From assembly GCA_017548275.1 (NCBI GenBank), contig JAFZAH010000050.1, positions 1-41,264 of the forward strand: a DNA stretch of 41,264 bases, given 5' to 3'. Source of the DNA: Prevotella sp. (GTDB lineage Bacteria > Bacteroidota > Bacteroidia > Bacteroidales > Bacteroidaceae). Numbering within the stretch: the stretch's first letter is position 1; each line of letters starts with the position of its first letter. The notes beneath the pieces were generated by a model. The model was not told where the DNA came from, did not search any database, and was given only the letters and a program-made list of their open reading frames with translations. The translations under genes and the position numbers were made by a program. Positions 1,637 through 38,958 of the stretch are shown in pieces.

Positions 1637-1875
1637 GGTCGTTTGGGGAGTTGGTCGTTTGGGGAGTTGGTCGTTTGGTCGTTTGGGAGATTGGTCGTTT
1701 GGGGAGCCCCCTCCCCATCCCTCCCCGAGGGGAGGGCGTGGTTAGTGGAGTATTCTCTTGCCCTTTGTCTCATTAAGTATCTACTCCCCTCGCCCTTTGG
1801 GAAGACTACGTGGGGGCGAGCTTCGCTCGGGATGGAGGGGCCGGGGGTGTGGCTGGAGAGGGGTTGGGGGTGAGA
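1637..1875 (-). repeat. Composite repeat element: GGTCGTTTG array plus GC-rich module
   Basis: Five copies of GGTCGTTTG lie between 1637 and 1703, starting 4 nt from the start codon of the minus-strand hydrolase. They are followed by GC-rich segments at about 1705-1740 and 1785-1875, the last ending GAGAGGGGTTGGGGGTGAG, 6 nt from the stop codon of the DUF1846 gene. Read on the minus strand the order is stop codon, TCACCCCCAACCCCTCTCC, spacer, (CCAAACGAC)n, start codon, the same order as at 15767-15913. The middle (1741-1800) contains extra sequence including CTACTCCCCTCGCCCTTTGG. Confidence 0.8.
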
Positions 1876-3606: not shown

Positions 3607-5790
3607 ATGTACAAACCACAATTCAACAAGCGCCGGCCAATCCTTTTCCGTCATTTTATCAGAAAAGGGTATGCGCTCTTTGCTTGTCTGGGCCGTGAGG
3701 TGATTATCGGTGTGTTGAGCGTAGCCACGTTGCAATCGGCCAGCGCCGCCACCGATGACAAGAAAAGTTCCTTCGAGGAACGCCCCGATACGACACGGAC
3801 GGAGAGGGTGCACGAACTCGACGAGGTCGAGGTCACGGGCACGAGCGCACCGCTTGCCTTGGAGCAAGCCGCGAGAATGGTCACAGTGCTGAGCCGCGAG
3901 GAGATACAATCGTCGCCAGCGCAAAGTATTAACGATTTGCTGAAATATGCCGTAGGCGTGGATGTACGGCAGCGCGGACCCATCGGGACGCAGACCGACA
4001 TCGCCATACGAGGCGGCACCAGCGAGCAAATCACCATCCTGCTCAACGGCATCAACATCTGCGACCCGCAAACCGGACACAATGCTTTTGATTTTCCTGT
4101 CGATGTGAGCGATATAGAGCGCATCGAAGTGCTTGAGGGCCCTGCAGGAAGGGTCTATGGCACCTCGTCGCTTGTCGGCGCGGTGAATATTGTGACAAAA
4201 AGCCTCACCCCCAACCCCTCTCCAAGTGGAGAGGGGAGTGATTACTCCCTGTGCCCCCAATCTTCCCATTGCTCCCAAAACTCCCAGTGCTCCCAGAATT
4301 CCCATCTTCCCAACTACACAAACGCCCAATCATTCGACATTCGCGTCGAGGGCGGCAGTTTCGGCTATCTGTCGGTTGGCGGCAGGGCGAGTGTGTCGCG
4401 TGGCGTATGGAGCAACCTGTTGAGCGGCAGCCTGACCCGCAGCGACGGTTATCTGCGTTCTGCCTCGGGTCACCTCAACAGCGATTATGCCGGAGGAAAA
4501 GCCTTTTATCAGGGCATGTACGATGATGATGCGATGCGGTTGCGGTGGCATGCCGGATTGAGCACCAAAAGCTTCGGTTCTAACACATTCTACAGTGCGA
4601 AGTTTGACGAACAATATGAGCGGACCACCAAAATCTATACCGCCGTTTATGGGGAGAATAAACTCGGGTGGTTCCATTTCAGGCCGTCAGTCTATTGGAA
4701 CCGCAACATCGACCGGTTTGAACTGATACGCGGTTCTGAGGAGAAAGTGCCGTTCAATTACCATTGCACTGATGTGTTTGGTGTGCATCTCAACAGTTAT
4801 TTCGACTGGGTAGGGGGACGGACCGCCATTGGCGCGGAGTTCCGCAACGAGGACATCGTCAGCGGCAATCTCGGCGAACCGCTGCACAGTCCCAAGCACA
4901 TCAGCGGCACCGACCGCGACTACCTGTACGGGCTGAACCGCTCCAACCTCAGTTTCCATCTTGAGCACAATGTGTTGCTTGACAGGATGACCCTCTCGGC
5001 GGGTTTCGTTGCGGTAAAAAACACATGGAACGGCATGCCGTTCACCTTTTACCCCGGTGTAGATATGAGTTATCGTGTGGGCAATTGCTGGAAAATCTAT
5101 GCCTCTTACAACTCGTCGCTGCGGATGCCCTCGTTCACTGAACTCTATTATAGTGTGGGCGGACATAAGGCGGATAAGTACCTTCAGCCCGAAGAGATGC
5201 GCGCGGTGGAATGTGGCGTGAAATACACCGTGGCGGGTGTCAGCGCCAAGGCTTGCGTATTCCATCACCATCTGCGCAATATGATTGACTGGGTGCTCGA
5301 CCCGACCGCCGCTGAGCCTGTTTGGGAAAGCGTGAACCGTACACGGGTCAACAGCATCGGGACGGAGATACGCGCTGACTTCGACTTGCGACGGTTGTTG
5401 AGCAGCCAACAGGTGCTGAGAAAGTTTCAAGTGGCTTATTGCTATATCAACGAGGACAAGCAGCCGCTGGGGCAAATGCAGACACAGTCGAAACTGGAAT
5501 ATTTGCGCCACCAACTGACGGCATCGCTGCAGGCTGTTTTCTTCGACCGTATGGGCATGACCGTGAAATATCGTCTGCACGACCGTGCCGGCACCTACAC
5601 CACCACTGCGGGCGAAGTGTTGCCCTATCAGGCGTATGGTGTCGTGGATGTGCGCTTGGCGTGGGATGCTCCCCGTTATAGTGTCTATGTCGAGGCTGCC
5701 AACCTGTTGGACAAGGATTATGTCGATTATGGCAACGTTCCCCAACCCGGACTGTGGTTGACGGCTGGTCTGAAATGGCATTTTCGTTGA
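3607..5790 (+). CDS. TonB-dependent outer-membrane receptor, BtuB-like, carrying an in-frame repeat insertion
   Basis: A 727-residue outer-membrane receptor. The N-terminus is long for a signal peptide: about 20 basic residues, then KGYALFACLGREVIIGVLSV and a probable cleavage after ASA (47). A TonB-box-like ELDEVEVTG precedes a plug domain (about 80-197) with the usual ITILLNGI, IERIEVLEGPA and GAVNIVTK blocks. The barrel runs from about 243 to the end, closing in the typical GLKWHF plus Arg. Residues 199-242 are not receptor-like: they translate an intergenic repeat element. Plug and barrel most resemble cobalamin-type BtuB receptors, but no riboswitch or B12 gene is nearby, so the ligand is open. 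It has its own promoter and stands alone. Confidence 0.88.
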   Translation: MYKPQFNKRRPILFRHFIRKGYALFACLGREVIIGVLSVATLQSASAATDDKKSSFEERPDTTRTERVHELDEVEVTGTSAPLALEQAARMVTVLSREEIQSSPAQSINDLLKYAVGVDVRQRGPIGTQTDIAIRGGTSEQITILLNGINICDPQTGHNAFDFPVDVSDIERIEVLEGPAGRVYGTSSLVGAVNIVTKSLTPNPSPSGEGSDYSLCPQSSHCSQNSQCSQNSHLPNYTNAQSFDIRVEGGSFGYLSVGGRASVSRGVWSNLLSGSLTRSDGYLRSASGHLNSDYAGGKAFYQGMYDDDAMRLRWHAGLSTKSFGSNTFYSAKFDEQYERTTKIYTAVYGENKLGWFHFRPSVYWNRNIDRFELIRGSEEKVPFNYHCTDVFGVHLNSYFDWVGGRTAIGAEFRNEDIVSGNLGEPLHSPKHISGTDRDYLYGLNRSNLSFHLEHNVLLDRMTLSAGFVAVKNTWNGMPFTFYPGVDMSYRVGNCWKIYASYNSSLRMPSFTELYYSVGGHKADKYLQPEEMRAVECGVKYTVAGVSAKACVFHHHLRNMIDWVLDPTAAEPVWESVNRTRVNSIGTEIRADFDLRRLLSSQQVLRKFQVAYCYINEDKQPLGQMQTQSKLEYLRHQLTASLQAVFFDRMGMTVKYRLHDRAGTYTTTAGEVLPYQAYGVVDVRLAWDAPRYSVYVEAANLLDKDYVDYGNVPQPGLWLTAGLKWHFR
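4201..4332 (+). repeat. Composite repeat element inserted in frame inside the receptor gene
   Basis: The element starts AGCCTCACCCCCAACCCCTC, forms a stem CCCCTCTCC/GGAGAGGGG, continues with GGGAGTGATTACTCCC (4234-4249), then degenerate 9-nt units of the form CTCCCAnnn (about 4253-4306) and CATCTTCCCAA. Reading the minus strand at 15767-15913, upstream of dapL, gives the same modules in the same order, including the identical 16-nt GGGAGTGATTACTCCC. Length is a multiple of three; no frame is lost. It encodes Ser/Asn/Gln/Cys-rich residues 199-242, just after the plug motif GAVNIVTK. Confidence 0.85.
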
Positions 5791-14551: not shown

Positions 14552-15766
14552 TCAAAACCTCTCTATCGCCTCCTCGATGTCGGCGCGTCGGCCGAAAGCG
14601 GTGAGACGGACAAAACCCTCGCCCGACGGACCGAAACCCACGCCTGGGGTGCATACAACGGCTGAATGATATAGCAGATGCTCGAAATAGCGCCACGAGG
14701 AGAGGCTGTCGGGCGTCTTCAACCACAGGTAGGGGGCGTTCTCGCCGCCATACACCTGATAGCCCTTGGCGGTGAGCCGTTCGCGCATGATGCGGGCGTT
14801 GCCCATGTAATAATCGATGGCGGCAGTCACCTGTGCTTCGCCCTCTGGTGTGTAAATGGCTTCTGCCGCACGTTGGCTGATGTAACTGGCACCGTTGAAT
14901 TTTGTGTTCTGACGGCGGTTCCACAACGGGTGCAGTGCCACACGGCTGCCGTCGCTCCTCGCCACGGTCAGTTCTTTCGGCACCACGGTATAACCGCATC
15001 TGACACCTGTAAATCCTGCCGTCTTGGAATAACTGCGCAGTTCGATGGCCACTTTTCTCGCACCCCGTATCTCATAGATGGAGTGGGGGATGGCGGGGGC
15101 TTGGATATAACGCTCATAGGCTGCATCGAAAAGGATGAGCGCATCGTTGTGCATGGCGTAGTTCACCCACTTCCGCAATTCCTCTTTGCTGAGCACTGCC
15201 CCCGTCGGGTTATTGGGATAGCAAAGGTAGATGATATCCACACGGTGGCGGGGTATCTGCGGCGTGAAGTGGTTATCCGGGTTGCAGGCGAGATAGGTGA
15301 CGCGGCTCCACCGTCCGTCGGTCATGTCGCCCGCCCGTCCGTTCATCACGTTGGCGTCGATATAGACGGGATAGATGGGGTCGGTTACAGCCATGCTGTT
15401 GTCCCACCGCAGCAGTTCGCCGATATTGCCCGTGTCGCTTTTGGCACCGTCGTTGATGAAAATGTCAGAGGGGTTGAGATGGATGCCTCGGGGCAGATAG
15501 TCATGTTTGGCAATGGCCTCGCGAAGGAATTCATAACCCTGCTCGAGACCATATCCGTGGAAAGTGTCTGAATGCCCCAGTTCGTCCACAGCGCGGTGCA
15601 TGGCGGTTGTCACGGCTTCACAGAGAGGCAATGTCACATCGCCGATGCCCAGACTGATGACACGCTCTTTCGGGTGTGTCACCATAAATGCTTTTACCTT
15701 TTTTGCGATGTCGGCAAAGAGGTAATTGTCGGTCATCTTCAACAGATGTTCATTGACAAGGGCCAT
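14552..15766 (-). CDS. dapL: LL-diaminopimelate aminotransferase
   Basis: A PLP-dependent class I/II aminotransferase converting tetrahydrodipicolinate directly to LL-diaminopimelate, for lysine and peptidoglycan. At 404 residues it has the family length and signature start MALVNEHLLKMTDNYLFADI. The PLP lysine lies in SYSKTAGFTGVRCGY; cofactor and substrate blocks include CYPNNPTGAVL and FDAAYERYI. The frame runs 30 codons further upstream to 15856, but that part translates repeat DNA (QTTKRPNDQ), so the family start at 15766 is chosen. The repeat array abuts this ATG with no spacing and no Shine-Dalgarno, which is odd. Confidence 0.96.
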   Translation of the reverse strand: MALVNEHLLKMTDNYLFADIAKKVKAFMVTHPKERVISLGIGDVTLPLCEAVTTAMHRAVDELGHSDTFHGYGLEQGYEFLREAIAKHDYLPRGIHLNPSDIFINDGAKSDTGNIGELLRWDNSMAVTDPIYPVYIDANVMNGRAGDMTDGRWSRVTYLACNPDNHFTPQIPRHRVDIIYLCYPNNPTGAVLSKEELRKWVNYAMHNDALILFDAAYERYIQAPAIPHSIYEIRGARKVAIELRSYSKTAGFTGVRCGYTVVPKELTVARSDGSRVALHPLWNRRQNTKFNGASYISQRAAEAIYTPEGEAQVTAAIDYYMGNARIMRERLTAKGYQVYGGENAPYLWLKTPDSLSSWRYFEHLLYHSAVVCTPGVGFGPSGEGFVRLTAFGRRADIEEAIERF

Positions 15767-15913
15767 GTCGTTTGGTCGTTTGGGGGACTGGTCGTTTGGT
15801 CGTTTGGTCGTTTGGGAAGATGGGAGTAATGGGAGTAATGAGAGTAATGGGAGCACTGGGGGTTCTGGGAGTAATCACTCCCCTCGCCCTTTGGAGAGGG
15901 GTTGGGGGTGAGG
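15767..15913 (-). repeat. Composite repeat element directly upstream of dapL
   Basis: Reading the plus strand from the dapL start: five copies of (G)GTCGTTTG (15767-15817), GGAAGAT, six consecutive 9-nt units of the form GGGAGTAAT/GGGAGCACT (about 15822-15875), the palindromic GGGAGTAATCACTCCC (15867-15882), then GAGAGGGGTTGGGGGTGAGG ending at 15913, 8 nt from the rseP stop codon. On the sense (minus) strand the part near dapL is made of CCAAACGAC and ATTACTCCC units, almost free of G. The same module order occurs inside the receptor gene at 4201-4332. Confidence 0.9.
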
Positions 15914-21142: not shown

Positions 21143-21149
21143 ATTTTAT

Positions 21150-21296
21150 TTGGTCGTTTGGTCGTTTGGTCGTTTGGTGGATTGGTCGTTTGGTCGTTTG
21201 GTCGTTTGGTCGTTTGGGGGGATGGGAGCACTGGTAGCACTGGTAGCACTGGTAGAAACCTCTAACCTCCTACCTCTCACCTCTCACCTCTTGTTT
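21150..21296 (-). repeat. Composite array between tsaB and DUF4290
   Basis: From the DUF4290 start: seven copies of GGTCGTTTG in blocks of three and four (about 21150-21217), then GGGAGCACT/GGTAGCACT units with a 9-nt period (about 21225-21254), then five units of ACCTCTC type with a 7-nt period (about 21259-21293). The 7-nt block runs into the tsaB coding end (stop at 21270). Unlike the other GGTCGTTTG sites the GC-rich TCACCCCC hairpin is missing. Confidence 0.85.
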
Positions 21297-30103: not shown

Positions 30104-30183
30104 CGGGGCGAACTTAGAACCCCGTGGAGCGGCGTGTTAATAGCGGTGTCTTTGGCCGGGCATCGTGGTTAGTGAATCTCCGC
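30104..30183 (+). promoter_or_regulatory. Structured 5' leader of rplM, candidate autoregulatory RNA
   Basis: Within the leader: hairpin CGGGG (30104-30108) with CCCCG (30120-30124); a closing stem TGGAG (30125-30129) with CTCCG (30178-30182); and inside it GGTGTC (30145-30150) with GGCATC (30159-30164). Downstream, 30185-30238, is A/T-rich and unstructured to the ATG. Ribosomal protein operons are often controlled by such leaders, but I cannot assign this to a described family. Confidence 0.5.
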
Positions 30184-38792: not shown

Positions 38793-38958
38793 GCCTCACC
38801 CCCGGCCCCTCTCCAAAGGGCGAGGGGAGTAGATAGTCCTCTAATGGAGTGGTATTGTCTTCACTCCTTCACTCCTCCACTCCTGAATAGTAGATAGTCC
38901 TCTAATGGAGTGGTATTGTCTTCACTCCTCCACTCCTTCACTCCTTCACCCCTAAACT
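38793..38958. repeat. GC-rich element, 41-nt direct repeat and 8-nt arrays before ispF
   Basis: Starts AGCCTCACCCCC (38792 on), then CCCCTCTCCAAAGGGCGAGG. A 41-nt perfect direct repeat follows (38828-38868 and 38889-38929, with TAGATAGTCCTCTAATGGAG). Each copy ends in units of TTCACTCC type with an 8-nt period (38861-38884 and 38921-38952). The array ends about 12 nt before the ispF ATG and has no G on the sense strand near it. Confidence 0.88.

Follow-up and report, generated by a model that had tools for sequence, protein, structure and literature searches.

A member of an intergenic composite-repeat family lies in frame at the plug-barrel linker of a BtuB-like TonB-dependent receptor in Prevotella

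REP and BIME sequences are short GC-rich palindromes, sometimes arranged as inverted pairs and in some cases located just after stop codons. Rickettsia palindromic elements (RPE) are described as dispersed palindromes that occur between genes and also in frame inside unrelated genes (PMC10969869). Within the Bacteroidota, the published description of the BrickBuilt MITE of Porphyromonas gingivalis gives it 23-nt units and an always intergenic location (PMC4596501). Abundant dispersed arrays of 7-nt units, mostly intergenic, have been described as the heptameric repeats of Xanthomonas and Nostoc (PMC4692102).

The locus described here lies in a 41,264-nt stretch of DNA (the window) from a Prevotella genome, a draft of 56 contigs and 87% completeness and the one genome from which the exact receptor insert is known. 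A TonB-dependent receptor gene in this window reads through 44 codons that belong to a composite repeat found elsewhere as a non-coding element. We put a probability of about three in four on the reading that these codons were captured from a family of intergenic composite repeats spread through the genome and are tolerated in frame at a permissive, inward-facing linker, and that such events are recurrent in the genus.

By sequence and predicted fold the receptor is a BtuB-like TonB-dependent transporter, for which cobalamin transport is putative. Both the plug domain (Pfam match at residues 86-191) and the 22-strand barrel of a BtuB-type transporter (TonB_dep_Rec barrel match at residues 282-700) are present according to Pfam and the predicted structure, and its best solved relatives, by sequence as well as by fold, are E. 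coli BtuB entries, with 1nqg and 2gsk as the top folds. Unlike a BtuB-type transporter, it scores far below the cut-off of the NCBIfam TonB-B12 equivalog (122.5 against 599.7 bits), and its linker is built from a repeat. No cobalamin riboswitch was found in the 41,264-nt window at the Rfam gathering score; the sole match at that level is an L13 leader, located elsewhere, and a riboswitch for the receptor was rejected.

The insert occupies receptor residues 199-242, between the Plug and barrel matches, where GAVNIVTK is followed by the 44 codons SLTPNPSPSGEGSDYSLCPQSSHCSQNSQCSQNSHLPNYTNAQS, after which the barrel resumes. In the alignment with homologues that the original prediction had proposed, all 29 lack these residues, although one of them (L045) has a head relative of its own at this place. 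A conserved domain shared with distant genera, which would speak against a captured repeat, is therefore not seen in that sample and was rejected. The AlphaFold2 model of the receptor (36 sequences, mean pLDDT 67.8, pTM 0.69, plug poor) has barrel strands that we read as 22, the first of them at residues 240-250, and residues 202-237 fall below a pLDDT of 50 and are modelled as disordered. The suggestion that the insert forms a surface loop did not survive this model, which places it at the plug-barrel junction. In TonB receptors the usual layout, together with strand order, tells the periplasmic from the extracellular side of barrel turns, and on this basis the insert probably lies on the periplasmic side. 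As the model is of moderate quality, this assignment leans on strand order and the known receptor layout.

The element is modular, and its parts follow one another in a fixed order, namely a palindromic head, 9-nt units of the CTCCC type, the junction ATCTTCCC and an 8-nt tail of the CCAAACGA type, which is degenerate in the receptor (Table 1). The receptor copy remains in frame with its 9-nt units, and there are no heptamers in its tail. It is identical at 102 of 118 positions to the non-coding copy upstream of dapL (score 74.5, against a maximum of 23.5 in 200 shuffles), and at 111 of 122 positions to a copy on another contig (C37), so that the claim of an in-frame intergenic repeat, dispersed with its modules in the same order, was borne out. 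The dapL gene itself passes the LL-diaminopimelate aminotransferase model TIGR03542.

Table 1. Coordinates of the receptor gene, its insert and related repeat copies in the window.
Feature	Positions	Strand	Basis
BtuB-like TonB-dependent receptor gene, 727 aa, insert-bearing	3607..5790	+	Pfam Plug 9.5e-22, TonB_dep_Rec_b-barrel 5.6e-22
Repeat-derived insert, 44 codons, plug-barrel linker	4201..4332	+	absent in 29/29 aligned homologues; low pLDDT; ends +/- a few bases
Palindromic head of the element, translated as LTPNPSPSGEGSDY	4202..4245	+	21-mer has 67 genome copies at <=3 mismatches
Tandem 9-nt units (CTCCCAGTG type), in part read as SQC/SQN	4244..4304	+	tandem repeat finder, periods 9 and 18
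ATCTTCCC junction and degenerate 8-nt tail (CCAAACGA type)	4304..4332	+	alignment with dapL copy
Non-coding copy of the element, adjoining dapL start codon (15764-15766); 8-nt array, 9-nt array, head	15767..15913	-	alignment, tandem repeat finder, head match
Further head copy, 1 mismatch	1855..1875	-	21-mer scan
Further head copy, 2 mismatches, then 61-nt direct repeat	38794..38814	+	21-mer scan, tandem repeat finder

The original prediction had also singled out a 16-nt core. This 16-mer, GGGAGTGATTACTCCC, is indeed exact in both window copies (4234-4249, + strand; 15867-15882, - strand), but it is no separate core, consisting instead of the end of the head (GGGGAGTGATTAC) and the first TCCC, and the proposed genome search returned five exact copies, each at the junction of the head and the 9-nt units. 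At up to three mismatches it has six window matches (the two near-palindromic copies each count once per strand, and the remaining two are unrelated matches with 3 mismatches), compared with 0.15 expected, and none of 100 shuffles reaches six. The 21-nt head CCTCACCCCCAACCCCTCTCC has four matches in the window at up to three mismatches (0.00 expected) and 67 in the genome, on both strands, against two for the reversed control. Across the genus, at up to two mismatches, it was found in 82 of 150 genomes, with 0 to 83 copies per genome.

For 62 of the 67 head matches in the genome the flanks were examined, and genes were recognised from their open frames. In addition to the receptor, in-frame heads occur in a ketoacyl synthase (C55), an MMPL-type exporter (C54), a bacterial alpha-2-macroglobulin MG10-domain protein (C35), two similar genes near the C-terminus (C23), and a small protein whose start resembles a signal peptide (C54). 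In the ketoacyl synthase, about 42 residues are absent from homologues in eight other genomes, and in the exporter the head-bearing loop differs from that of most homologues and is somewhat longer; a relative of the exporter (L315, genome G011, its match holding one TGA) bears a different long insert at that loop. Several further genes, which resemble lysS, MATE, rmuC and a sulfatase-like enzyme (named by the look of their sequences), appear to be extended at the C-terminus by heads.

The Prevotella heads resemble REP/BIME sequences in being short GC-rich palindromes, sometimes in inverted pairs and some directly past stop codons, and differ from them in having tails of tandem units and no head beside the single Y1 transposase gene found. 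As described for RPE, the Prevotella repeats are dispersed, both intergenic and in frame in unrelated genes (PMC10969869), and in-frame copies whose homologues lack them are found in two unrelated genes, those of the receptor and the ketoacyl synthase. They differ from the RPE as described in belonging to another phylum, in combining a head with tandem tails, in being captured recurrently at the turns of one receptor, and in the involvement of 7-nt arrays; as the relatives found are Prevotella-like, we do not file the element as an RPE. With BrickBuilt, according to its description, the element shares the Bacteroidota and an intergenic form with inverted-repeat ends and a minisatellite, whereas BrickBuilt has 23-nt units, other terminal repeats and is always intergenic (PMC4596501), while the Prevotella element, with insert units of 9 and 8 nt, also lies inside genes. 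The heptameric repeats of Xanthomonas and Nostoc are similarly abundant and dispersed but built from other units, the main text of that paper mentions neither Bacteroid nor Prevotella, and a concentration in one protein's turns does not appear to be described there (PMC4692102).

To describe the linker as the site of a single capture understates what is observed, as the same site bears different repeats across the genus. The receptor was matched in 237 of 398 genomes, and the analysis drew on 30 of the best places and on 80 further loci; of these 80, the first 60 followed the order of the match list, apart from loci already included, and for the last 20 several list entries were skipped and some were picked for long frames or late match starts. 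Because genes were chosen by similarity, and some for long frames, the fractions of long linkers are not unbiased. A named-locus set consists of the best 80 loci, and the sets overlap. Of 218 aligned genes 217 were usable (L083 was left out), and merging of identical pairs of linker and first turn (turn T1 of the model) reduced them to 168 distinct variants, comprising 101 with linkers of 12-16 aa, four of 17, and 63 of 18 or more. A motif parse, successful for 119 of 134 genes, gave 13 residues in 71 of the 119. By the thresholds used, the 63 long linkers include 14 that match the head (13 direct, one inverted), 19 tandem arrays, and 30 that are neither, some of which resemble diverged repeats (e.g., LRNEKLDNKNEKW) and others not; one short linker also counts as a tandem array. 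The array units vary by species (AATGAGA, GAGGTGA, AGGAGTC, GAGGAAC, GAGGAAG), and the linker of L109 holds a head dimer. In the nearest relative found for the window receptor (L192, an uncultured Prevotellaceae, 77% in the best segment), the linker has 26 residues unrelated to the insert, so that the comparison showed neither a clean empty site nor a target duplication and is compatible with replacement as well as with insertion.

On a receptor tree (FastTree; 110 distinct of 136 long sequences, with linker and first-turn columns left out and 29 of 107 inner branches weak), the nine head-type rows need nine changes, compared with a shuffled mean of 8.8, and show no clustering. For the 17 array rows 13 changes are needed, of which at least 10 are forced by starred branches. 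L193 and L196 differ by exactly 21 nt, i.e., three heptamers within the array, and the L213/L220 pair looks like a local replacement. Two Xylanibacter ruminicola records (L248 and L249, the latter the named isolate D31d, which carries a linker array) have very similar receptor proteins and different linkers; their differences are also dense in the 70 nt adjoining the linker, which suggests exchange of a tract instead of insertion.

For one array type, linkers may draw on the repeats of their own genomes. The sequence AATGAGAAATGAGA has 43, 25, 52, 40, 85, 47, 1, and 40 matches in the eight genomes with an AATGAGA-type linker (judged by eye; counts include overlapping matches and the gene's own copy), while 35 other genomes examined have 0-27, with zero in 20 of the 35 (p 2.4e-5, kinship ignored). 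The corresponding expectation that head-rich genomes have head-type linkers was not borne out: the 11 genomes that have such a linker contain a median of 12 head copies and the 32 that lack one a median of 4.5 (p 0.09), and the two richest genomes, G026 (108 copies) and G003 (91), have short linkers.

Tandem arrays are also frequent beyond the linker. When 110 receptor genes were scanned for tandem units 6-9 nt long, 81 arrays came up, every one with period 7 (codon-shuffled genes give 0.2), and 40 of the 110 genes have at least one. On the window receptor model these arrays are confined to the linker (14) and the presumed periplasmic turns (65; T1 13, T2 10, T3 7, T7 1, T8 31, T9 3), the exceptions being one in an extracellular loop and one unassigned. 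The turns hold 36 residues in this model and the extracellular loops 141 (turns vs. loops by number of sites, p 4e-20, kinship ignored). In the 80 named loci, arrays of periods 5-12 reach 31.1 per 100 kb in the receptor, 8.9 in other coding DNA and 77.2 in intergenic DNA, as delimited by simple ORF-based gene calls, and period 7 accounts for 53/53, 12/33, and 31/50 of them, respectively.

Because 7 cannot be divided by 3, the three reading frames of a heptamer array all run through one cycle of seven codons, and a unit without stops in one frame of a strand has none in the other two. Among array units picked by eye, six of eight turn units are stop-free on the coding strand, all six having a stop on the other strand; the remaining two, CTCTAAC and AGATGTA, would as pure units put a stop into the coding strand. 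Four of six linker units are stop-free on the coding strand; the other two are AATGAGA and GAGGTGA, and in linkers built from them variant units (TGG or TTA for TGA) remove the stop.

Repeats in the linker and the first turn co-occur in 16 of the 168 variants (4.9 expected; Fisher p 6.7e-8). It is possible, though we hold it only tentatively, that they arise as inverted pairs through template switching at the replication fork, a reverse-complement copy being seeded some 55-110 nt away. Such switching between inverted repeats in coding DNA has been reported in yeast (PMC8604942). Consistent with it, 13 heads in the linker are direct and one is inverted, while all six in the first turn are inverted (p 1.8e-4). 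In the 63 long-linker variants, linker DNA scores higher against the reverse complement of the first turn in the same gene than against the reverse-complemented first turns of other genes (651 vs. 487 +/- 22; 0/5000 permutations), with no excess of direct matches (429 vs. 423 +/- 10). In L045, inverted arms of 106 and 103 nt surround 111 nt, and in the glutamate synthase gene of G028 a single open frame contains two inverted heads, which by Pfam coordinates fall within the central domain. On the other hand, because of their stop codons many arrays are more readily kept on one strand than on the other, and both sites may draw on the repeats of the same genome; part of the inverted-pair signal could then arise without paired formation, and kinship, which the permutation statistics ignore, also accounts for part of it. 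In the window gene itself no such pair is seen, its score being 9 and the mean 9.2. An intragenic inverton that recodes the strand between the arms was considered as well, and since the inverted spacer is stop-free in six of 14 genes and has 1-3 stops in the other eight, it finds no consistent support.

Heads could also be the ends of mobilised MITE- or REP-like elements, the receptor insert being an ordinary transposition, which we regard as rather unlikely. Head copies are scattered on both strands, and in other genomes they form inward inverted pairs 25-370 nt apart in 19 of 20 intergenic regions, which had been chosen since the scan listed close copies there. In the source genome, though, inward pairs make up only three of 13 close neighbours, and the receptor copy has a single head, hence no terminal inverted repeats of the MITE kind. 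A single Y1_Tnp transposase gene was found in this 87% complete draft, with no head in its 3.3-kb locus, and it was rejected as the mover of heads; moreover, the same receptor sites are occupied by tandem arrays without heads.

A broader view, in which the periplasmic face of the receptor is an evolvable surface of intergenic repeats, with heptamers entering in any frame, lengths changing in seven-residue steps, the genus varying linker and turns in this way, and inverted pairs bracketing barrel strands through template switching, appears doubtful to us at present. It is improbable that selection maintains the repeats in linker and turns for some function, for instance to tune the release of the plug, access for TonB or the assembly of the barrel. 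Arrays at two to four sites in 24 of 110 genes would fit such selection, as would their scarcity in another TonB receptor family of this genus, used as a control (one array in 30 genes, and the same linker length in 28 of the 30), yet the encoded peptides are wholly different between species (PNPSPSREG, RNEKWEMRNEK, GERREVRG), 101 of the 168 variants keep a short linker, and the window insert is modelled as disordered. Chance similarity or an assembly artefact, which the draft state of the genome and the single observation of the exact insert might suggest, is very hard to reconcile with the shuffle and control statistics for the 16-mer, the head and the alignment with the dapL copy, and with the presence at this site, in many assemblies, of further repeat inserts, among them the D31d array.

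Under the captured-repeat reading, an intergenic repeat would enter the DNA coding for the plug-to-barrel linker and be kept there because its net length preserves the frame, the head offers frames without stops, and the linker is flexible, inward-facing and permissive. The insert is most likely tolerated and not a new functional domain. We speculate that a first copy may enter by template switching or illegitimate recombination with intergenic copies, and that exchange between strains may spread linkers. Arrays would then lengthen or shorten by replication slippage, as the 21-nt difference between L193 and L196 suggests, and selection against arrays in strands and extracellular loops would shape the observed pattern.

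In the open-access literature searched, we found no report of a TonB receptor whose turns or linkers derive from repeats. Rickettsia genes are known to contain in-frame palindromes, while the recurrence of captured repeats in the inward-facing turns of one protein seems to be new. The receptor offers a natural experiment, in which one outer-membrane protein has been struck many times by unrelated repeats that are segregated to one side of its barrel, and the repeats allow the turns of a TonB receptor that are free to change to be mapped. It also allows one to ask by what route intergenic repeats get into genes, and whether inserts of this kind tune transport or are tolerated. For the annotation of Prevotella proteins it carries a caution, namely that stretches of the LTPNPSP and RNEKWEMRNEK types can be translated repeats, not domains.

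The receptors at L248 and L249, two BtuB-like TonB-dependent receptor loci that both come from Xylanibacter ruminicola, are very similar to each other and carry unlike plug-barrel linkers, and the differences between them cluster beside the linker. At a further receptor locus (L193:3001-6228), the match extends over 3.2 kb, compared with the usual ~2.1 kb, which perhaps reflects a second copy or a split match.

The head, i.e., the palindromic leading module of the composite intergenic repeat, also occurs at gene ends, where copies sitting at the stop codon apparently lengthen the C-termini encoded at L061, L027, L066, and L002 by tails of the SLTPxPSPKGEGS type. These genes resemble lysS, a MATE transporter gene, rmuC, and a gene for a sulfatase-like enzyme respectively, by names that we assigned by eye. 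Within genes, a single open frame holds two inverted heads in the glutamate synthase of genome G028 (L298:193-4500), and the MMPL-type exporter of genome G011 (L315), a relative of the window genome's exporter with an in-frame head, has a long insert of its own in the same loop as that copy.

Further repeat copies and an RNA leader in the window are listed in the table below. In addition, arrays of 8-, 9-, and 7-nt units (TTTGGTCG, TGGTAGCAC, and AACCTCT respectively) lie side by side over ~140 nt at 21149-21291, and within 38794-38953 a head copy is followed by a 61-nt direct repeat containing 8-nt CTTCACTC units.

Repeat copies and RNA leader located in the window
Feature	Position	Orientation	Context
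8-nt TTTGGTCG array	1634-1702	minus	3' of DUF1846 gene
Head copy	1855-1875	minus	3' of DUF1846 gene
L13-Bacteroidia ribosomal protein leader (RF03127)	30104-30178		

The sole Y1 transposase gene found (L081) is flanked on either side by palindromes of another kind around GCCCTGAAAGGGC, an arrangement that would be expected of a RAYT with its own repeat.
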